Source: Streptomyces camelliae (GTDB lineage Bacteria; Actinomycetota; Actinomycetes; Streptomycetales; Streptomycetaceae). Taken from it: a stretch of 64,000 nucleotides of DNA. The stretch's first letter is position 1; every line of letters starts with the position of its first letter. A program made the position numbers and the translations under genes. The stretch lies in the NCBI RefSeq assembly GCF_027625935.1, contig NZ_CP115300.1, positions 5,580,001-5,644,000 of the forward strand, written 5' to 3'. This document shows positions 15,865 to 32,256 of the stretch, piece after piece. Below the pieces are notes generated by a model. The model saw nothing but the letters and a program-made list of their open reading frames with translations. It was not told where the DNA came from and did no database searches.

Positions 15865-18108
15865 TCACCGGCGCTCGGTGACAGGAAGCCGGCCGGAGGG
15901 CTGCGGCACGGTGGTCAGCGGGGAGCGCGCCCCCGCCGCCGGCACCGGATGACGCTCCGCCAGCGGCACCACCGGCGCCGGCGCCTCCGCCGGCTCGCCC
16001 AGCACCACATGCCGTACGACCCGCTCGGCGGCACGCCCGTCGTCGTACGGGCAGAACCGCTCCCGGAACGCCGCCCGCAGCTGGGCCGAGCGTGAGCCGC
16101 GCCAGTGGCCGGTGGCGAAGATGTCGATCAGCTCGTCCTCGCTGCGCGCGACCGCGCCCGGCGGGGCGGCGCGCAGGTCGACGTAGGCGCCGCGGACCGC
16201 CTCGTACGCCGCCCAGTCCTCGGTGTGCACCACGATCGGCCGGTCCAGGCCCGCGTAGTCGAACATCAGCGACGCATAGTCGGTGAGCAGCACGTCCGAG
16301 GCCAGACACAGGGACTGCACGCTCGGATGGTCGCGGACGTCGATGATCCGGCCGCTCCCGGCAGCCGGGTCGTAGGGCGTGTGGGCCAGGATCACGAAGC
16401 GCGGGCCGAGGCGGCGCACGATCCGCTCCAGGTCCAGCAGCGGGTGCTGGGTGCGCCGGTGGTCGCGGTGGGCCGGCGCGTACAGGATCGCGACCGCGCC
16501 GCGCGGGACGCCCAGCGACTCGCGCAGCCGGGTCACGTCCGCCGAAGTCGCCCGCTGGAAGACGTCGTTGCGCGGGGCGCCGTACTCCAGCGTGCGGTAC
16601 CGGCCCGGCAGGACCCGCTCCCAGACGAGCGTCGAGTGCCGGTTGCCGGACAGGACGTGGTCCCACTGGGCGGCGCCCCGCAGCAGCGCGGCGAAGTCGG
16701 TGTCCCGGGCCGCCGCCGGACGCTCCAGCAGGTCCAGGCCCATGTGCCCGAGCGGGGTGCCCTGCCCGGTCCTGATCACCACCTGCCCGCGCCGCTTGCG
16801 CAGCCGCGGCTCCAGTACGTCGTCGGTGACCAGGTACTTCGCGCGGGCCAGCGCCGTCCAGTAGGCGGCGCCACCGGGCCGGACGCGGCGCGGGCCGGGC
16901 GGCACCGCATGCTCGTGGCCGGGGCGGGTGATCCAGGCGGTGCGGATGTGCGGGGCGTGGGTGCGGAACGCCTCCTCCAGTGCGCCCGGGTCGCCGCCGT
17001 GCCCCTCGGCGGCGGTGAACACCGCACGGTCGGCACGCACCGGCAGCCGCAGCTGGACCTGGTAGTGCAGGCGCAACGCGCCGGAGCGCACGGCGCGGGC
17101 CAGCTTCACCGCCGCCTTCAGCGTGCGCCGGCGCACGGCCGAGGCGAGCTGGAGCGCGCGGAACGTGCGGCGCAGACCGAAGCGGACCAGGGCGTGGCCC
17201 GGCCGCATCCGGGTGCCGGGGACCCGGTGCCGCCGGTAGTGGGCGCGGGCCCGGCGCAGGAACTCGGCCCGGCTGCCGCGCGGCAGCCGGCCGCCCAGCG
17301 TGTACACCGCCGCGTAGTGGTCGACCATGCGGCGGAACAACTCCGTGCGCCACCGCGCCAGTTCGGGCCGCCCGGCGACGTACGCGAAGACCCGGTCGTA
17401 CTGCTCGAAGAGATCGACGTGCCGGCGGCTGCCGGTGCCGGGGACGGTGCCGCTCTGCGGGCGCTGCCGGTGGTGCACGCACACCCGGTCCAGTGTCCCG
17501 ATCGAGTCCGCCGCCATCAGCACCGGGAGGGTCCAGGGGGCGTCCGCGCAGGAGCCCGGCGGGAAGGTGAAGCCCTGCCGTGTGACGAACTCCCGCCGGC
17601 AGGCCGTGTTCCAGGCGGCCACCGGCATCCGCAGCAGCCCCGGCCGGTCCTCCAGCCGCAACGGCACCGGGCCCTGCTCGGTGAGCAGGCCGGCCGGCTG
17701 GTCGCGCACGGCCCGGCCGTCCCAGCACGTGCGCGCGGAGTCGTACACCAGGACGTCCGGCTCCCCGGCCTCCTTGATCCGGTCCGCGATCGCCCGCAGC
17801 GCGTCAGAGGTGAGCGTGTCGTCGCCGTCCAGGAAGACCAGGTAGTCACCGCTCGCCTCGGCCAGCCCCGCGTTGCGGGCACCGCCGAGCCCCCGGTTCT
17901 CCGCCAGGTGCACGGCCTTCACGCGCGCGTCCAGGGCCGCGTACTCGTCGACGATCGCGCCGCAGGAGTCCGGTGAGCAGTCGTCCACGGCGATCACTTC
18001 AAGATCGGGACACGACTGCGTGAGCACCGAGTCCAGGCACTCCGAGAGGTACGCCTGGACCTGGTACGCGGGGACGATGACACTGAACCGGGGCAAGGGG
18101 ACATCCAT
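15865..18108 (-). CDS. Bifunctional GT2 / TagF-like glycerophosphotransferase paralogue
   Basis: 747 residues. Residues 5-230 are an intact GT2 domain with VDDCSPDSC (41-49), NRGLGGARN (71-79) and the metal motif FLDGDD (92-97). Residues 350-720 are a TagF-like domain with APAHRD (544-549), AHTPYD (575-580) and TDYASLMFDY. Where the active paralogue at 4364-6568 has HHGTPLK, this protein reads GQGTPLG (448-454), so the first catalytic-type histidine is absent. It may therefore use only its GT2 site, use another acceptor chemistry, or be inactive as a polymerase. It converges on ohr with an 18-bp gap and stands apart from the other wall genes. Confidence 0.8.
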   Translation of the reverse strand: MDVPLPRFSVIVPAYQVQAYLSECLDSVLTQSCPDLEVIAVDDCSPDSCGAIVDEYAALDARVKAVHLAENRGLGGARNAGLAEASGDYLVFLDGDDTLTSDALRAIADRIKEAGEPDVLVYDSARTCWDGRAVRDQPAGLLTEQGPVPLRLEDRPGLLRMPVAAWNTACRREFVTRQGFTFPPGSCADAPWTLPVLMAADSIGTLDRVCVHHRQRPQSGTVPGTGSRRHVDLFEQYDRVFAYVAGRPELARWRTELFRRMVDHYAAVYTLGGRLPRGSRAEFLRRARAHYRRHRVPGTRMRPGHALVRFGLRRTFRALQLASAVRRRTLKAAVKLARAVRSGALRLHYQVQLRLPVRADRAVFTAAEGHGGDPGALEEAFRTHAPHIRTAWITRPGHEHAVPPGPRRVRPGGAAYWTALARAKYLVTDDVLEPRLRKRRGQVVIRTGQGTPLGHMGLDLLERPAAARDTDFAALLRGAAQWDHVLSGNRHSTLVWERVLPGRYRTLEYGAPRNDVFQRATSADVTRLRESLGVPRGAVAILYAPAHRDHRRTQHPLLDLERIVRRLGPRFVILAHTPYDPAAGSGRIIDVRDHPSVQSLCLASDVLLTDYASLMFDYAGLDRPIVVHTEDWAAYEAVRGAYVDLRAAPPGAVARSEDELIDIFATGHWRGSRSAQLRAAFRERFCPYDDGRAAERVVRHVVLGEPAEAPAPVVPLAERHPVPAAGARSPLTTVPQPSGRLPVTERR

Positions 18109-22087: not shown

Positions 22088-25000
22088 TCAGAGGAGGGAC
22101 GGCACCCGTGCCGCCGACACCTCCCGGGCCGCCCGCTCCACCGCGCTCGCCAGCAGGGCCAGGTCGGTCGGACCGTTGCCCAGCTCCCGCACCGGCCGGC
22201 GGGCCGGCGGGTCGCCCATCCGTGCCCAGTCCAGCGGCACGACCGTCGGCCGCTGGGTCGCGGTCCGCGGGATACGGCCCGTCACCCGGCCCGCCTGGAA
22301 ACCGGTGACCCGGCCGTCCGCGTACGCCAACTGTCCGCGCCCCGGAGCCGGTTCGTCCGGCCCGGACGCCGGGGCGACCAGCGCGACCCGCAGCGTGGCC
22401 CGGCGCGCGGGCTCCGTCTCCGCCGTACGACCCCCCGTCCCGGCCGCCGCCACCAGATGCACGCCGAGCCGCGCACCCTCCCGGGCCACCGCCTCCAGCG
22501 CCCGCATCACCGAGCCCGCGGCGGGCCGGCCGGGCGAGCCGAGCGCGGGCGTGACCAGCGCGTCCAGATCGTCGACGACCACCACGAGCCGGGGCAACGG
22601 CGGTATGGCCTCGGCCCGTTGACGCGCTGCGGCGCCCGGCCGCAGCCGAAGGGTGGAACTGGGCGGCGCCTCTATGTCCCCCGAGGAGGCGGAGGCAGAG
22701 GTGGCGGCGGAGGAGGACGTGCGCTGCGCGACGATACGGCCCGACAGCGCGCGTCCCGCATGCCACTCGGCGAAGTCCGACCGGCCCAGCAGCTCCGCGC
22801 GCCGCTTCAGCTCGGCGGCCAGCGACTGGGCGAACTCCCGCATCCGTACGGGGTCGTTGGCGATGAGGTGGGTGGTCACGTGCGGTATGTCGGTACACAC
22901 CCGCAGCCCCTCACCGCGTCCGGCGCCCGTCCCGACCCCGTCCCGCCCGTCGATCAGCACGATGCCGAGCCGGTCCGGCCGCTCGGCGGCGGCCAGCGAG
23001 GCCACCACCGCCCGCAGCAGCTCCGTACGGCCGCTGCCGGCCGGTCCCTCGATCAGCAGATGGGGCCCGTCGGCCACCAGGTCGGCGGTGAGTGGCCCGC
23101 GCGGTCCGGCACCGAGCACCGCACGCGCCCGGCCGCCGAGCGCCTGGGTGTCGTCCGCCGCGTCCGCCCAGCGCGCCATCAGCGACGCCGGGGTGGCCCG
23201 GGCCAGCCCCAACTCGTCCAGCAGCCGGGCCGACTGGGGCAACGGCGTGGCCACGCGCGCGTGCGACCCGGCGACCGGGCCGTCCGGCCGCAGCGGCGCC
23301 AGCGCCCGCGCGAACCGCTCCGCCCAGGCGCCGGACACCGCGTCCACGCCCGCGAGTACACCGGGTCCGACGGGCCCGCTGGGCGCCACCCGCATCACAT
23401 GCAGCCCGGTGGCGACATCCCCGCCGAGCAGCGCCACGGCACCGCAGTGCCGGAACGTCGGCGTCACCGCGCAGGCGGCCTCGTACGCCACCGCCACGGC
23501 GGAGCCGGCCGACGCGGTCTCGGTCTCGGCGAGAGACACGACATGCACCCCGACCCGCGGCCCGGCCACGGCGAGCCGCGCGAGAGCCTCCTGCAGGGCG
23601 GCTCCGCCGGGATCACCGTCCACGACGACGATCGTGTAGGGCCCGGTGAAGCCACCGGTGCCCGGGGCTTCGGCGGTGTCCTTGGCCCAGGAGGGGCGAC
23701 GGGTGCGGGCCGAGTCGGCCGCGGGCTGGGGGATGCGTCCGGTGGGGCCGGTGGGGTCGGCCGGGGGGTGGTGGGGGGTGGCAGTGGAGTACGTGCCGTG
23801 GGTGGAGGCGGTCGGGGTAGTGGGGTGTCCGGCGGCGGTTCCCTGGGTGGGTGCGCCGGCCGAGGCATCCGGGGCGTGTCCGTGTGCGGGAGCGCCGGAG
23901 TGGCCGGATACCGCTCCCTGGGCGGGTGTGCCCGGGTGGCCGGAGGCTGTGGGCTGTGCGGGCAGCAGGCCGGGTGTGGAGTTGCCCGGCATACGGCGGT
24001 CGGCCGGGGCGTGGTCCGACAGGTCACGGGATCCGGCGGGTGAGCCGTGGGCGGACCGGCCCGGCGCGTCCGAGGACGACCCGGAGGCGGTGAAGCCTTG
24101 CGTCTCCGGCGCGGTGTCCCAGGCAGGGGCGGCAGGCGTGCCGGCCGCGGTGGGGCGGCTCGTGGTGCCGGGCGTGGCGGAGCCGCCCGGCACGGCTGCG
24201 GTGCCGGCTGCGGCGCGGGTGCCCGGGAGCGAGCCTTGGGCGAGGGCGTTCGGGAGGGTGCCGGGCGTGGCCGCGCTGGACGGTACGCCGGTGCCGGGCG
24301 CCGGGGTGCCGGTGGGGTGGGCCGTGGTTCTGGCCGTCGCCGCGTGGTCGTCCAGCCGGCGGAGCAGTTCCTCCGTGCGGGCCGCCGCCTGTTCGCGGTC
24401 GTAGGCCAGCAGCAGGCGGCAGTCCTGGCCGTGGCCGGGCCGGACATGGGGGAGCCAGCCCAGCCAGGACCACTCGGCGGTGCGCTCCGCCACCGGGCGG
24501 GAGCGGTCGGCGCTGATCAGCACGATCTCCAGCAGGTCGGGGGAGTGCAGCGCGGCGAGCTGGGCCAGCACCGCGCGGGCCAGCCCGGACAGCCGGGGGC
24601 GCGGGCCGGCCAGGCCCAGCGAGCCCGCCTCGCGCAGCGCCGCCGTCACCGGCACGGCGGGAACCAGACCCGAGCCGTCCGGCGCGCTCCGGTCGGCCGT
24701 GCCGAGTCGCACGGTCAGCGCCTCCGGGTGTCCCGGCCCGCGCTCCCACAGCCGGGGTCCGGGGCCCAGTGCCGTCAGCAGCAGGGCGGCGGGATCCGGC
24801 CAGGCCTCGGGCTGCGGCGGGGCACCGGCCGCCGGAACGGCACCGGGGGAGCGGGTCACCTGGGCGCCGTACGACTCCTCGCCGCCGGTCTGCTCCGACC
24901 GCCCGCCGGCCAGCCGTCGCGCCCACCTTCCGAGGCCGCGCCGCCGGGCACCCTGCGGCAGATCGCCGCCGACTCCGAACCGCCCCGCGTGCGTGTCCCC

Positions 25001-26341
25001 ACTGGTACCGGCACCGGTACGAGATCCCGCACCGGACGCGCTCTCGATCCGCGGCGCCCCACCTTGCCCGGGCACGAGAGCCGACTCCGCCCGCTGATGC
25101 TCCTGACCCCCGTCGAAGCCACCCGCGGACGACCCTTGCCCCGCACCGAAGCCACCGGCACCAGCCGTCGTTCCACTCCCACGAGGGCCACCACCGGACA
25201 CCCCACCGGCAGCCGCCGACGCTTGCCCCCGACCAGCGCCCCCGCCCCCCGACCGCGCACCCGCATCCGCCGAAGTCCCTCCACCCCGACCAGACCCACC
25301 GGCACCCGACAAGGCACCCGCACCCGCCGAACCAGGGCCACCCCCGGCCGACGCCCCACCGGCACCCGAAAGACCGCCCGCACCCGCCGAACCAGGCCCA
25401 CCAGCACCCGACGCCGTATCGCCCCCCGCCGAAGCCGCTCGACCCCCACCAGGCCGCCCCGCACCCGACGCCCCACCGGCACCCGGCAAACCACCCGCAC
25501 CCAGACCCGTACCAGCGCCCACACCTGCACCCAGACCCGTACCAGCGCCCACACCCACACCCGCCGCCGGCGCTTGCCCCCCACCGGGGCCGCCCGCACC
25601 ACCCGGCGACGAAACCCGCACGGGTGGTGCGGGTGGGAAACCGGAGCCGGTCGAAGGCCGGTCCCCGGACCCCCCGGCCAGGCCGACCCGAACGCACCCC
25701 TCCCCGTCCGGCACCCCCCGCACCCGCGCCCCCGGCCCCCCGGCCGGCGTCACCCGCAGCGCGGACTCACCGATCCGCAGCAGCCCCCCGGCAGGGACCC
25801 GCACCGGCCGCTCCCCGACCCGCACGCCGTCGAGCGTCGTACCGTTCGTGGAGCCCAGGTCGGCGACCGAGACGCGGCCGTCGGTGCCGACCGTGACCGC
25901 GCAGTGCAGCCGGGAGACGTCGGGGTCGTCCAGCGGCACGTCCGCGTCGGCGGAGCGGCCCACGCTGATCCGGCCGCCGTGCAGCAGATGGACCCCGCCC
26001 GCGTCCGGCCCCGCGACGACGTGCAGCTGGGTCGGCGCGTCGTCCAGCTCGGGATGCGGCTCGGGGGCCGCGGGGGCGCCCAGGGAGAGCACGGCGCCGT
26101 CGATCAGCGGGGGCTCGCCGAGGGTGCAGCGGCGCGGGTCCAGACGGTCGGCGCCGGCGTAGAGGACGACGGCCGCGCCACCGGTGTCCCGGCCCTCCCC
26201 GGTGACCGCCCCGGCCAGCGCGGACGCGACCGCGGCCAGGTCCGTGCCCGTGGGCGCCGTGACCAGCACGTCGCGGCTCGCGGCGCGACCCCGCTGCGGG
26301 GACGGGCCCAGCGGGTCTACGACGGTCAGCCGGATCTGCAT
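22088..26341 (-). CDS. Giant FHA-domain, EccC/FtsK-like ATPase
   Basis: 1417 residues from the ATG at 26341. Residues ~104-197 are an FHA domain with GRS (128-130), SRLH (143-146) and STNG (164-167), which binds phosphothreonine. Residues ~210-430 are Gly/Ala-rich low complexity. An EccC-like segment follows (LWERGPGHPEALTVRLG, LHSPDLLEIVLI, WSWLGWLPHV). It is interrupted by ~220 residues rich in Thr, Pro, Ala and His, then resumes (YTIVVVDGD). The C-terminal FtsK/SpoIIIE domain has GPAGSGRTEL, with Arg in place of the Walker A Lys, and Walker B LVVVVDDLD. No membrane helix is visible. No ESX partners are nearby. It is divergent from pkaA, a plausible phosphorylation partner. Confidence 0.82.
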   Translation of the reverse strand: MQIRLTVVDPLGPSPQRGRAASRDVLVTAPTGTDLAAVASALAGAVTGEGRDTGGAAVVLYAGADRLDPRRCTLGEPPLIDGAVLSLGAPAAPEPHPELDDAPTQLHVVAGPDAGGVHLLHGGRISVGRSADADVPLDDPDVSRLHCAVTVGTDGRVSVADLGSTNGTTLDGVRVGERPVRVPAGGLLRIGESALRVTPAGGPGARVRGVPDGEGCVRVGLAGGSGDRPSTGSGFPPAPPVRVSSPGGAGGPGGGQAPAAGVGVGAGTGLGAGVGAGTGLGAGGLPGAGGASGAGRPGGGRAASAGGDTASGAGGPGSAGAGGLSGAGGASAGGGPGSAGAGALSGAGGSGRGGGTSADAGARSGGGGAGRGQASAAAGGVSGGGPRGSGTTAGAGGFGAGQGSSAGGFDGGQEHQRAESALVPGQGGAPRIESASGAGSRTGAGTSGDTHAGRFGVGGDLPQGARRRGLGRWARRLAGGRSEQTGGEESYGAQVTRSPGAVPAAGAPPQPEAWPDPAALLLTALGPGPRLWERGPGHPEALTVRLGTADRSAPDGSGLVPAVPVTAALREAGSLGLAGPRPRLSGLARAVLAQLAALHSPDLLEIVLISADRSRPVAERTAEWSWLGWLPHVRPGHGQDCRLLLAYDREQAAARTEELLRRLDDHAATARTTAHPTGTPAPGTGVPSSAATPGTLPNALAQGSLPGTRAAAGTAAVPGGSATPGTTSRPTAAGTPAAPAWDTAPETQGFTASGSSSDAPGRSAHGSPAGSRDLSDHAPADRRMPGNSTPGLLPAQPTASGHPGTPAQGAVSGHSGAPAHGHAPDASAGAPTQGTAAGHPTTPTASTHGTYSTATPHHPPADPTGPTGRIPQPAADSARTRRPSWAKDTAEAPGTGGFTGPYTIVVVDGDPGGAALQEALARLAVAGPRVGVHVVSLAETETASAGSAVAVAYEAACAVTPTFRHCGAVALLGGDVATGLHVMRVAPSGPVGPGVLAGVDAVSGAWAERFARALAPLRPDGPVAGSHARVATPLPQSARLLDELGLARATPASLMARWADAADDTQALGGRARAVLGAGPRGPLTADLVADGPHLLIEGPAGSGRTELLRAVVASLAAAERPDRLGIVLIDGRDGVGTGAGRGEGLRVCTDIPHVTTHLIANDPVRMREFAQSLAAELKRRAELLGRSDFAEWHAGRALSGRIVAQRTSSSAATSASASSGDIEAPPSSTLRLRPGAAARQRAEAIPPLPRLVVVVDDLDALVTPALGSPGRPAAGSVMRALEAVAREGARLGVHLVAAAGTGGRTAETEPARRATLRVALVAPASGPDEPAPGRGQLAYADGRVTGFQAGRVTGRIPRTATQRPTVVPLDWARMGDPPARRPVRELGNGPTDLALLASAVERAAREVSAARVPSLL

Positions 26342-26652
26342 CCCCACCCCAACACGAGCACGTCGGCCAGTACTGGAGGCATCCTCGCACCTGCCACTGA
26401 CACAGCGCCCGGCACCCGGTAACAAGTGATCTTGATTGGTCGGCTCTGCCCCCAAAAGTGCCTGACCACCGGTCCCCCGACGATCACTTGAGATCGGTCA
26501 CGTCCGCTCTGCGGCAACCGACGAACCGACGGCAGCGTCTTTCTGTCGAACATGTGGTGCCCAGGAGGGCGGCACTACAGTGGGTCGGACAACCGGAACG
26601 ACAACCGGAATGCAGGCAAGCAAGCATCAGCAAGCAGCAGGGAGCGCGTGAC
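26342..26652. other. Divergent intergenic region between the FHA/FtsK gene and pkaA
   Basis: 311 bp with no convincing gene. It is less GC-rich than its flanks and includes GTAACAAGTGATC and TTGATTGG near 26420-26440 and ACAACCGGAACGACAACCGG near 26590, a short direct repeat. Promoters for both genes must lie here. The reading frame open upstream of pkaA has no start codon with a ribosome-binding site. Confidence 0.5.
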
Positions 26653-28326
26653 GTGCGGCCAGTCGGCAGCAAGTACCTGCTTGAGGAGCCGCTCGGACGC
26701 GGCGCCACAGGCACCGTCTGGCGTGCCCGCCAGCGTGAGACCGCGGGCGCCGAGGCGGCCGTGGCCGGCCAGCCCGGAGAGACGCTCGCGATCAAGGTCC
26801 TCAAGGAGGAGCTGGCGAGCGACCCGGACATCGTGATGCGCTTCCTGCGCGAGCGCTCCGTACTGCTCCGGCTCACCCACCCCAACATCGTCCGGGTCCG
26901 CGACCTGGTCGTCGAGGGCGATCTGCTGGCGCTGGTCATGGATCTCGTCGACGGCCCCGACCTGCACCGCTATCTGCGCGAGTACGGCCCGCTCACCCCG
27001 GTCGCCGCCGCCCTGATGACGGCCCAGATCGCCGACGCCCTCGCCGCGAGCCACGCCGACGGGGTCGTCCACCGCGACCTGAAGCCCGCCAACGTGCTGC
27101 TCGCGCAGTACAACGGCCAGATGCACCCGATGCTGACCGACTTCGGCATCGCCCGCCTCGCCGACTCCCCGGGCCTGACCCGCACCAGCGAGTTCGTCGG
27201 CACGCCGGCGTACGTGGCGCCGGAGTCCGCCGAGGGCCGCCCGCAGACCTCCGCGGTCGACATCTACGGCGCCGGCATCCTGCTGTACGAGCTGGTCACC
27301 GGCCGCCCGCCGTTCTCCGGCAGCACAGCCCTGGAAGTCCTGCACCAGCACCTGAGCGCCGAGCCGCGCCGCCCCTCCACCGTGCCGGACCCGCTGTGGA
27401 CGGTCATAGAGCGCTGCCTGCGCAAGAACCCCGACGAGCGGCCGAGCGCCGAGAGCCTCGCGCGCGGGCTGCGCGTCGTCGCCGAGGGCATCGGCGTGCA
27501 CGCGAACGCCGCGCAGATCGCCGCCGCCGAGGGCGTGGGCGCGCTGCTCGCCCCCGACCCGGCCCCGACGGCCGTACCGGGCGTGCCCGGCGCCGCCGAC
27601 CCCACCCAGGTGCTGCCGACGAACGCGCCGCAGCCGTCGTACGACCCGAGCGCGGCGACGAGCGTGCTGCCGCACACCGGCGGCCCGGCCGGCGCCGCCG
27701 ACCCCACCGCCGTACTGCCGAACACGGGCGCCGCCGACCCGACGGCGCTCCTGCCCAACACCGGCCCGCAGGGGCAGCAGCCCGAGCAGCCGCACCCCTG
27801 GCAGACCCAGCTGCGCGCGGCCCGCGACCGCAACGAGCAGACGCAGGTCCAGTACCTGGCCCCGGAGGACGACCCGCTGCGCCACCGCCCGCAGCGCCAG
27901 GTCGCCCGCCCCCAGCAGCAGCCGCGCCCGGCCCCGCAGCCCCGCACCCAGCAGCCGCAGCCGCGCGGCCGGCAGCAGGGCTACCAGCAGGGGTACGGCT
28001 ACGCGCCGCAGCAGCAGCCCCAGCAGTACGCCCCGCCGCAGCAACCGCAACAGCCCCAGCAGCCGCAGCGTCCCGCGCGTGAGCCGCGCGAGCCGCGTGC
28101 GCCCCGGCAGCGCAGCGCCAACCCGATGAAGATTCCGGGGCTCGGCTGCCTGAAGGGCTGTCTGTTCACGCTCGTCATCCTGGTCGTGGCGAGCTGGCTG
28201 ATCTACGAGCTGACCCCGCTGCACACCTGGATCGGCCAGGGCCGCAGCTACTGGCACGAGGTGAGCCACTGGGTCGGCCAGGTCAGCAGCTGGGTCAAGG
28301 ATCTGGGCGGCTCCTCGGGCAACTGA
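26653..28326 (+). CDS. pkaA: Membrane Ser/Thr protein kinase PkaA
   Basis: 557 residues from the GTG at 26653 (AGGGAG 8 nt upstream). The Hanks-type kinase domain spans ~8-275: Gly loop GRGATG (15-20), catalytic Lys48, HRD (140-142), DFG (163-165), and GTPAYVAPE in the activation segment. A Pro/Gln/Ala-rich linker follows, with four T-x-[VL]-L-P motifs (Thr318, 336, 352, 364). One membrane helix lies at about 498-520, then a short 37-residue external tail. It phosphorylates proteins on Ser/Thr in the cytoplasm. Tandem arrangement with pkaB matches the pkaA-pkaB pair described in S. coelicolor, whose PkaA is of similar length. Confidence 0.9.
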   Translation: MRPVGSKYLLEEPLGRGATGTVWRARQRETAGAEAAVAGQPGETLAIKVLKEELASDPDIVMRFLRERSVLLRLTHPNIVRVRDLVVEGDLLALVMDLVDGPDLHRYLREYGPLTPVAAALMTAQIADALAASHADGVVHRDLKPANVLLAQYNGQMHPMLTDFGIARLADSPGLTRTSEFVGTPAYVAPESAEGRPQTSAVDIYGAGILLYELVTGRPPFSGSTALEVLHQHLSAEPRRPSTVPDPLWTVIERCLRKNPDERPSAESLARGLRVVAEGIGVHANAAQIAAAEGVGALLAPDPAPTAVPGVPGAADPTQVLPTNAPQPSYDPSAATSVLPHTGGPAGAADPTAVLPNTGAADPTALLPNTGPQGQQPEQPHPWQTQLRAARDRNEQTQVQYLAPEDDPLRHRPQRQVARPQQQPRPAPQPRTQQPQPRGRQQGYQQGYGYAPQQQPQQYAPPQQPQQPQQPQRPAREPREPRAPRQRSANPMKIPGLGCLKGCLFTLVILVVASWLIYELTPLHTWIGQGRSYWHEVSHWVGQVSSWVKDLGGSSGN

Positions 28327-31299: not shown

Positions 31300-32256
31300 A
31301 TGACGAAGAAGACGCGGATCCGGGTCGCGCGGATAGCCGCGGGCGCCGTGATCGCGGCCGGTGCGTCCCTGACGGCCGCCGGCGCGGCCTCCGCCCTGGA
31401 CCTCAACGTCCAGGCGGGTCCGATCAGCCTGGGCGCGCACACGAACACCGACGACGGCGGCACCGACGGCGGCTGCCCGGTCGCCGTCTGCACCGACGGC
31501 GGCACGACCGACGGCGGCTCCACGACCGACGGTGGCTCCACCACGGACGGCGGTTCGACCACGACCGACGGTGGCTCCACCACGACCGGCGGCTCGACCA
31601 CGACCGACGGTGGCTCCACCACGACCGGCGGCTCCAGCACCACCGATGGTGGCATCGGCGGCACCGTCACCATCGGTGGCACCTCTGACGGCGGCTCCAC
31701 GACCACGACCGGTGGCACCACCGACGGCGGTTCGACCACGACCGGTGGCTCGACCACGACCGGTGGTTCGACCACGACCGGTGGTTCGACCACGACCGGT
31801 GGTTCGACCACGACCGGTGGCTCCACCACGACTGGTGGCTCGACCACGACTGGTGGCTCCTCCACGGACGGTGGCTCCAGCACCACCGGTGGCAACGGCA
31901 ACTCCGGCGGTAACGGCAACTCCGGCGGTAACGGCAACTCCGGCGGTAACGGCACCGGCGGCTCCAGCACCTCGGGCGGCTCGGGCAGCACCGGCGGCTC
32001 CACCACCGGCGGCAACAACGACAACCCGCAGGGCGGCAGCGGCAAGACCACCCAGGACGCCGGTTCCTCGACCCTGACCGACACGGGCTCCTCCGACAAC
32101 AACAACAAGGCCCAGGGCGGCGACAAGCAGCTCGCCGAGACCGGTGCCGGCCAGACCGCGTTCCTGGTCATCGGCGCCGCGACGATGATCGCCGGCGGCA
32201 TCGGCTTCCGCGTGCTGCCGCGCCTGGTGAACGGCCGGGGCGGCGCCGCCGCCTGA
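31300..32256 (+). CDS. LAETG sortase-anchored repeat-rich surface protein
   Basis: 318 residues. The signal peptide is cleaved near ASA-LD (about residue 32). A short mature N-terminus contains two Cys (GGCPVAVC). A low-complexity stalk of Thr/Gly/Ser repeats follows, including seven exact GGSTTT and three GGNGNS units. The cell-wall sorting signal at the C-terminus has LAETG (278-282), a hydrophobic helix and Arg-containing tail. LAxTG is the motif of class E sortases in Streptomyces, so the protein should be linked to peptidoglycan. The stalk has no predicted binding domain, so its role is unknown. The 299 bp upstream (31001-31299) holds the prfB terminator and an unusually AT-rich stretch. 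Confidence 0.8.
31726..31851 (+). repeat. Tandem 18-bp repeat (seven units) coding GGSTTT
   Basis: Seven near-identical 18-bp units in frame within the LAETG surface protein gene. Such arrays change copy number by slippage or recombination and would change stalk length in whole hexapeptide steps. Confidence 0.85.
31888..31941 (+). repeat. Tandem 18-bp repeat (three units) coding GGNGNS
   Basis: Three 18-bp units immediately downstream of the GGSTTT array, with the second and third identical and the first differing at one or two bases. Confidence 0.8.

Follow-up and report, generated by a model that had tools for sequence, protein, structure and literature searches.

A conserved threonine motif array in the linker of the Streptomyces kinase PkaA and a divergently encoded FHA protein as its candidate reader

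In Mycobacterium tuberculosis, the phosphorylated juxtamembrane linker of the kinase PknB interacts with FhaA (Rv0020c) (PMC12077195), and FhaA binds a CwlM peptide phosphorylated at T382, which has Phe at +3 (PMC6180346). Kinase and FHA partner are encoded at one locus in the case of PknF-Rv1747, PknH-EmbR and PknQ-MupFHA, the docking residues of the last pair having been placed in the activation loop (PMC4238996). A Hanks kinase and an FHA scaffold also belong to one system in type VI secretion (PpkA-Fha), although this is a Gram-negative secretion system in which Agrobacterium Fha binds phosphorylated TssL (PMC3953482). Because PknB-FhaA, PknF-Rv1747 and PknH-EmbR have already been described, the reading developed below for PkaA varies a known type of kinase-FHA docking, and its principle is not new. 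PkaA would resemble PknB in combining a kinase linker with an FHA protein partner (PMC12077195), and resembles PknF, PknH and PknQ in that kinase and candidate partner are encoded at one locus. The candidate partner of PkaA differs in its degenerate FtsK/EccC-like domain; PknF, PknH and PknQ are paired with an ABC transporter, a transcription regulator or an FHA protein that has no ATPase of this kind. The PkaA linker carries a repeated motif array.

The window, meaning the whole 64,000-nucleotide stretch of Streptomyces camelliae DNA that was analysed, contains pkaA and a divergent FHA gene (see the table). PkaA is composed of a kinase domain, a Pro/Gln/Ala-rich linker and a single C-terminal transmembrane helix, and its HRDLKPAN and DFG motifs are consistent with a Hanks-type kinase. 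The GTG at 26653 was taken as the start from the residue numbering of a preliminary description of this DNA, the full open reading frame extending from 26458 to 28326. Since the hydrophobic segment of PkaA is presumably transmembrane, we read the linker as cytoplasmic. The preliminary description had pointed to four T-x-[VL]-L-P motifs in this linker, three of them preceded by Asp-Pro and all with Leu at +3. We recovered all four at residues 383, 401, 417 and 429 of the open reading frame, equivalent to Thr318, Thr336, Thr352 and Thr364 from the GTG start, with three DPT and one AAT; Leu occupies +3 throughout the window motifs, while orthologues also use other residues. The array exceeds chance: when the 213-residue linker was shuffled 200,000 times, two motifs arose in 9 cases and three or more in none.

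Features of the pkaA locus, in coordinates of the window
Feature	Coordinates	Strand	Remarks
Divergent FHA/FtsK gene	22088..26341	-	Open reading frame spans 22088-26455; Pfam FHA and FtsK_SpoIIIE
Walker B-like VVVVDDLDAL	22556..22585	-	Asp in place of catalytic Glu
Walker A-like GPAGSGRTE	23021..23047	-	Arg in place of Lys
FHA domain	25769..25969	-	Contacts R129, S143, H146, N166 (counted from MQIRLT)
5' part of published sco2975 sigma-E promoter (CGTGACCGATCTCAAG)	26487..26502	-	Identical (PMC6767563)
pkaA sigma-E-type promoter, GGCAAC-N17-CGTCTT	26513..26541	+	Form matches published sco2974 promoter (PMC6767563)
pkaA, Hanks-type Ser/Thr kinase	26653..28326	+	Pfam Pkinase, E 1.2e-52; start inferred
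PkaA kinase domain	26680..27459	+	
Linker motif 1, D-P-T318-Q-V-L-P	27598..27618	+	
Linker motif 2, A-A-T336-S-V-L-P	27652..27672	+	
Linker motif 3, D-P-T352-A-V-L-P	27700..27720	+	
Linker motif 4, D-P-T364-A-L-L-P	27736..27756	+	
PkaA hydrophobic segment CLFTLVILVVASWLIY	28159..28206	+	Presumably transmembrane; well conserved in alignment
pkaB, sister kinase of PkaA	28407..29687	+	Pfam; tails served as negative control

The strict motif was kept in 121 of 123 PkaA orthologues (81/81 in Streptomyces, 10/10 in distant Streptomyces, 18/20 at other loci of the family and 12/12 at other loci of the order), and a relaxed form that also accepts V, I or F at +3 was kept in 123/123, raising the other family loci to 20/20. 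The sampling took in 20 of 66 sampled family genomes outside the genus and 12 of 15 from the remaining order, and alignment A1 comprised 30 of 33 prepared sequences; because the sequences are related, the retention counts are not independent. Each linker has 1 to 5 motifs, and among 388 orthologue motifs the +3 residue was L in 76%, M in 23% and V in 1%, Pro at +4 being fixed by the pattern. Where 2.6 strict Thr copies would be expected, the orthologues hold 385, compared with 1 copy of the Ser version (1.8 expected) and 0 of the reversed Thr motif (2.7 expected). PkaA thus has the conserved linker sites, Thr and not Ser, that are looked for in a kinase linker-FHA docking pair. FHA domains select for phosphothreonine, a selectivity that the near-absence of Ser fits. 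The PkaB tails of Streptomyces lacked the motif (0/79), and one family locus (L211), with two T-x-A-L-P words in the PkaB reading frame, counts against this control.

These counts bear on two other explanations. The sites could be phosphorylated yet have no FHA reader, and tune in cis the activity of PkaA, its dimerisation or its accessibility to phosphatases. Juxtamembrane threonines of kinases can indeed be phosphorylated, as at seven sites of StkP (PMC12077195), but the conserved +2 and +3 residues and the preference of Thr over Ser suggest a reader, and thymidylate kinase, which is not a protein kinase, bears the same motif; we consider a purely cis role improbable. Alternatively, a partner without an FHA domain could recognise the array as a linear motif, phosphorylation playing no part. 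The constant Pro at +4 argues for such a partner and, to our knowledge, is not an FHA requirement; however, the near-complete failure of Ser to replace Thr would be puzzling if the residue stayed unmodified, making this the least probable explanation of all.

The divergent gene is assigned, from promoter similarity and position, as the SCO2975 orthologue, and its product consists of a small N-terminal domain, an FHA domain, a long low-complexity region and a degenerate FtsK/EccC-like ATPase domain. The phosphothreonine-contact residues expected of an FHA partner are present, and the R-S-H-N set is unvarying in all 118 evaluable proteins of the order (76/76, 10/10, 20/20 and 12/12). The FHA fold is predicted to be canonical, with the GarA, OdhI and FhaA structures close to the model. 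On the other side of the protein, the earlier designation as an FHA ATPase was not borne out, the catalytic motifs being degenerate in this lineage. At the Walker A Lys and the Walker B Asp-Glu that are canonical for EccC and EssC, the window protein reads GSGRTE and VDDL, and a Walker B Asp-Glu was found in none of 112 evaluable rows. Nor did a simple scan of the window protein find the membrane helix expected of EccC/EssC, the top 19-residue hydropathy being 1.55. Calling it EccC-like is only loosely right: Pfam detects an FtsK_SpoIIIE domain, but the NCBIfam equivalog scores fall below their cut-offs for both EccCa (138.1 against 509.15 bits) and EssC (68.7 against 778.4). From its sequence, the neighbour looks like a pseudo-ATPase. 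EccC/EssC and the multi-domain FHA-FtsK proteins of other Actinomycetes share with it the succession of FHA and FtsK-type ATPase. Those proteins, however, keep the Walker A Lys (31/31) and the Walker B Asp-Glu (30/30), with a neighbouring kinase mostly undetected; the two of them compared with Pfam match further ATPase regions, whereas the three Streptomycetales proteins so compared match one FtsK domain.

The divergent arrangement reported for the window held there and at 121 of 122 pkaA loci (79/80 in Streptomyces, 10/10 in distant Streptomyces, 20/20 in the family and 12/12 in the order), the remaining locus stopping at a contig edge, and the FHA gene was present in 81/81 sampled family genomes. 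The preliminary description had suggested comparing motif conservation with FHA gene presence. Motif and pair are co-retained, but the comparison does not discriminate: PkaA without the FHA gene occurred at none of the examined loci where the neighbour is visible, and a search for the motif without the gene is powerless because the gene was never seen absent. Of the 40 prfB loci inspected in other families of the class, a number of which are short contig ends, 2 have an FHA-FtsK gene nearby. Apart from the pkaA pair, a neighbouring kinase was detected at 4 of 32 FHA-FtsK loci (31 from other families plus a second copy from a Streptomyces genome; short contig ends are among them). One of these four (L183/L280) has a T-x-A-V-P site, and the kinases of L140, L186 and L190 have no Thr motif by the patterns used. 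L140 is the one case outside the order in which a kinase and an FHA gene were found to diverge, and its lack of motifs counts against the docking reading. The sigma-E regulon paper names both genes, sco2974 and sco2975, in its Table 1 (PMC6767563). The sigma-E promoter pattern of pkaA was found in 78 of 80 loci, and the sco2975-type core GTGACCGATCTCAAG was exact in 38 of 80.

The exclusivity that had been implied for the PkaA-FHA pair did not withstand a search of the genome, given the array of thymidylate kinase, the presence of several FHA proteins and other kinases near FHA genes. Scans for D-x-T-x-[VL]-[LIM]-P and [DE]-T-x-V-[LIM]-P returned 21 and 19 matches against 7 and 5 for the backward patterns; both are limited to these sub-patterns, and other carriers may have escaped. 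The first scan led to the thymidylate kinase tail, whose Thr-only array occurs in 29 of 30 loci (83 Thr copies where 0.9 would be expected, 0 Ser), and we rejected a motif private to the pkaA-FHA pair as too narrow. One more frame with two words came from the second scan (L317); it is a class-III aminotransferase by Pfam, and we take its words for chance occurrences within a folded domain. FHA domains were matched 10 times in the genome, read as eight proteins, and kinase domains 48 times. Kinase L002 has two FHA genes at a distance of about 5 kb and L014 another at about 2.4 kb, so that an FHA neighbourhood is not special to PkaA. A scan of the genome's kinases for T-x-[VLIFMA]-[LM]-P, covering 30 of the 48 matches and 18 frames from 17 stretches spanning the other 18 (L276 and L277 without a re-detected kinase), gave four words in PkaA and at most one in every other frame; with V, I or F also accepted at +3, two words each appeared in L012 (the same as L271), L013 and L262.

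It is quite possible, if doubtful, that several Hanks kinases of the Streptomycetaceae write this phosphothreonine motif as a general one, that shared FHA proteins, for instance of FhaA or FhaB type, read it, and that PkaA and thymidylate kinase are two carriers among others, the adjacent FHA protein not being the main reader. Besides the thymidylate kinase tails, two related sites in the N-terminal tail of a DoxX-family protein and single related sites in further kinases, such as L002 and L007, argue for it, as do three upregulated phosphosites of S. rimosus dTMP kinase, which may or may not fall in the motif (PMC9600765). PkaA is missing from the four S. coelicolor kinases that the same paper names as phosphorylated (PMC9600765). 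On the other hand, of the two carriers with at least three copies, PkaA is FHA-paired wherever its neighbour is visible, thymidylate kinase being judged by FHA positions in its own genome only. Moreover, the residue at -1 is mostly E in the thymidylate kinase array and P or A in PkaA, so that the two arrays may be read differently. Since thymidylate kinase carries the same Thr-only array, the reader of PkaA may itself be another FHA protein or several.

We tentatively propose, giving it slightly less than an even chance, that the phosphorylated linker threonines of PkaA constitute a multivalent membrane dock, bound by the neighbouring FHA pseudo-ATPase, which would be held there as a scaffold or regulator. 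Envelope stress would, through sigma-E, raise the divergent neighbour together with PkaA. Either PkaA itself or another kinase would phosphorylate the T-x-[VA]-[LM]-P sites of the cytoplasmic linker, which lies between the kinase domain and the membrane anchor, and the SCO2975-type FHA domain, chosen among several, would bind them. The neighbour would thereby be kept at the membrane, as scaffold or regulator and not as motor. It is the leading, though unproven, candidate reader of the linker. The module first suggested, in which PkaA autophosphorylation recruits an FHA ATPase to the membrane, is partly supported, by the Thr-only motifs, the invariant FHA contacts, the pairing and the sigma-E co-listing, and gives way in its ATPase label and its implied exclusivity.

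The recruits of long-linker bacterial Hanks kinases are rarely known. With a short conserved motif, a co-listed FHA neighbour and thymidylate kinase as a further carrier, phosphopeptide binding could match each FHA domain to its targets. The locus further hints that an ATPase of FtsK/EccC type has become a scaffold that binds phosphorylated partners. A broader reading, which we regard as unlikely, is that Streptomycetales share a phosphothreonine code, arrays of T-x-V-[LM]-P on the stress-induced PkaA and on thymidylate kinase, and that its reader is an FHA pseudo-ATPase whose EccC-like ancestor was a motor and which became a phospho-scaffold. If such a shared code were true, envelope stress would decide whether thymidylate synthesis is brought to the membrane machinery or kept away from it.

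The linker of the Hanks-type Ser/Thr kinase PkaA had been proposed to carry four T-x-[VL]-L-P motifs (Thr318, Thr336, Thr352 and Thr364); all four were found, and this numbering is consistent with translation from a GTG at 26653. Among 200,000 shuffles of the linker, two motifs arose in 9 and three or more in none. In the 9.6-Mb genome around the window, kinase frames contain four strict words (T-x-[VLIFMA]-[LM]-P) in PkaA and at most one in any other, and single related sites occur in further kinases, such as those of loci L002 and L007.

We counted this strict pattern in PkaA linkers of four sets, with expected values obtained by shuffling: the window together with 80 close Streptomyces loci, which were the best among 401 confirmed; 10 more distant Streptomyces loci; 20 loci representing 16 further genera of Streptomycetaceae, drawn from 66 sampled family genomes outside Streptomyces; and 12 loci, out of 15 sampled, from elsewhere in the order Streptomycetales. 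The motif was present in 81/81, 10/10, 18/20 and 12/12 linkers, respectively, and in 20/20 family linkers when V, I or F was also allowed at +3. Threonine copies numbered 297, 32, 44 and 12 (1.77, 0.25, 0.38 and 0.21 expected), counts that measure retention rather than independent events because the linkers share common descent. The corresponding serine copies numbered 0, 0, 1 and 0 (0.95, 0.20, 0.30 and 0.37 expected). The reversed threonine pattern was absent from all four linker sets, and the reversed serine pattern occurred once, in the order set. Each linker of the window and the 80 Streptomyces loci has between 2 and 5 motifs. For the window and the 32 loci of family and order, the motifs follow the aligned end of the kinase at distances of 17 to 145 residues. 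Taken over all motifs, the most frequent letters spell A-A-D-P-T-x-V-L-P.

The tails of the sister kinase PkaB contained no motif in 79 cases from the 80 Streptomyces loci (1.39 expected); outside this count, the PkaB frame of one family locus (L211) has two T-x-A-L-P words. Across the S. camelliae genome, D-x-T-x-[VL]-[LIM]-P gave 21 matches against 7 for a backward control. One in-frame match was the tail of thymidylate kinase (loci L235/L283, near 4156145 of contig G000:C1), with three copies (AADETAVLPQ and relatives). This long, charged, disordered-looking C-terminal tail carries an array of E-T-x-V-L-P-x-V, with threonine only. Thymidylate kinase was present in 46 family genomes; in the best 30 of these loci, 29 tails had the motif, with 83 threonine copies (0.89 expected) and no serine copy (0.65 expected). 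The dTMP kinase of S. rimosus has three upregulated phosphosites (PMC9600765), which may correspond to the motif threonines. The genome scan also matched in frame a DoxX-family membrane protein (L237, near 5021599 of the same contig), whose N-terminal tail has two T-x-[VL]-[IL]-P sites.

The divergent FHA gene noted beside pkaA in the preliminary description accompanies it in 79/80 Streptomyces, 10/10 distant Streptomyces, 20/20 family and 12/12 order loci, the remaining Streptomyces locus having only 345 bases upstream of pkaA. As far as the stretches extend, pkaB and prfB usually come next, and the FHA gene was present in all 81 family genomes sampled. PkaA is not the sole kinase near an FHA gene in this genome, as two FHA matches lie about 5 kb from L002 and another about 2.4 kb from the kinase locus L014. 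Beyond the order, FHA-FtsK genes are common, mostly without a detected adjoining kinase. In two genomes of another family (L279 and L280), the gene next in tandem after FHA-FtsK encodes a kinase whose domain resembles that of PkaA; this single gene seems also to encode a degenerate kinase-like domain, fused to the PkaA-like kinase. Such a second arrangement hints at a functional link. In one Streptomyces genome (L192, G012) there is an additional and longer FHA-FtsK gene, beside which no PkaA-like kinase was detected, and in L212 (G330) the neighbour's FHA and FtsK parts fall in different reading frames, through a frameshift or an assembly error. Elsewhere in the window, the LAETG and hydrophobic end of a Thr/Gly-rich protein is presumably a sortase signal; this protein had no Pfam match.

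The neighbour had been called an FHA ATPase, a name that its sequence does not support for the ATPase part. Arg129, Ser143, His146 and Asn166 of the FHA domain are kept in 76/76, 10/10, 20/20 and 12/12 evaluable proteins of the close Streptomyces, distant Streptomyces, family and order sets, and in 24/32 distant proteins beyond these sets. The predicted structure (mean pLDDT 87.6) matches the FHA structures of GarA, OdhI and FhaA, and residues 1-90 make up a separate small domain, read as a beta-grasp. The ATPase part has lost catalytic residues within the order. The Walker A Lys is Arg in 70/70 evaluable close Streptomyces proteins; the position is K in 6 and R in 3 of 9 more distant Streptomyces proteins, K in 15 and R in 4 of 19 family proteins, and Val or Ile in 11/12 order proteins, one being gapped. 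The Walker B Asp-Glu was found in 0/112 rows from the order, about seven of them poorly aligned. Distant proteins have the Walker A Lys in 31/31 and the Walker B Asp-Glu in 30/30. A simple hydropathy scan gave no clear membrane helix in the window's neighbour protein. Retention of the FHA pocket together with loss of catalytic residues argues for a putative phospho-binding scaffold rather than a motor.

Both sco2974 (pkaA) and sco2975 are listed in Table 1 of the sigma-E regulon of S. coelicolor, whose targets come from ChIP-seq followed by a promoter search (PMC6767563). The match to the sco2975 promoter and its position identify the divergent gene as the sco2975 orthologue. The pkaA promoter pattern occurs in 78/80 loci, against 0/80 control stretches taken from within the kinase gene. 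An exact sco2975 promoter core is present in 38/80 loci.

Features of the pkaA region and of other genes in the window
Feature	Position	Strand	Description
PkaA ORF	26458-28326	+	Kinase domain, 213-residue linker, one hydrophobic segment near C-terminus
pkaA promoter	26513-26541	+	GGCAAC-N17-CGTCTT; same form as published sco2974 promoter (PMC6767563)
sco2975-type promoter start	26487-26502	-	Identical to start of published sco2975 promoter (sequence match)
Thr/Gly-rich protein	31300-32256		LAETG and hydrophobic stretch at end
Glycosyltransferase fusion	15865-18108		Glycosyltransferase family 2 fused to CDP-glycerol glycerophosphotransferase; teichoic-acid type enzyme

Threonine is used almost exclusively, residues +2 and +3 are hydrophobic and the motifs are arrayed in a membrane-tethered linker, all of which fits putative phosphothreonine ligands of FHA domains. 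T-x-V-hydrophobic phosphopeptides are described in mycobacteria (GarA ETTSVF, Rv2536 EAPTEVIR; PMC4322841), and a CwlM peptide phosphorylated at T382, in which the +3 residue is Phe, is bound by FhaA (PMC6180346). Since the gene pairing is conserved, the neighbour leads as the candidate among possible FHA readers of the motif. The literature searched, with many subscription papers outside it, gave no description of this kinase-FHA module or motif, no match to six motif strings and one paper mentioning SCO2975. A phosphorylated kinase linker is reported to interact with an FHA protein in PknB-FhaA (PMC12077195) and kinase-FHA pairs encoded at one locus are already known (PMC4238996), so the proposal is a variant of a known scheme; what is new in it is the motif array, the putative pseudo-ATPase partner, the sigma-E listing and the motif shared with thymidylate kinase.
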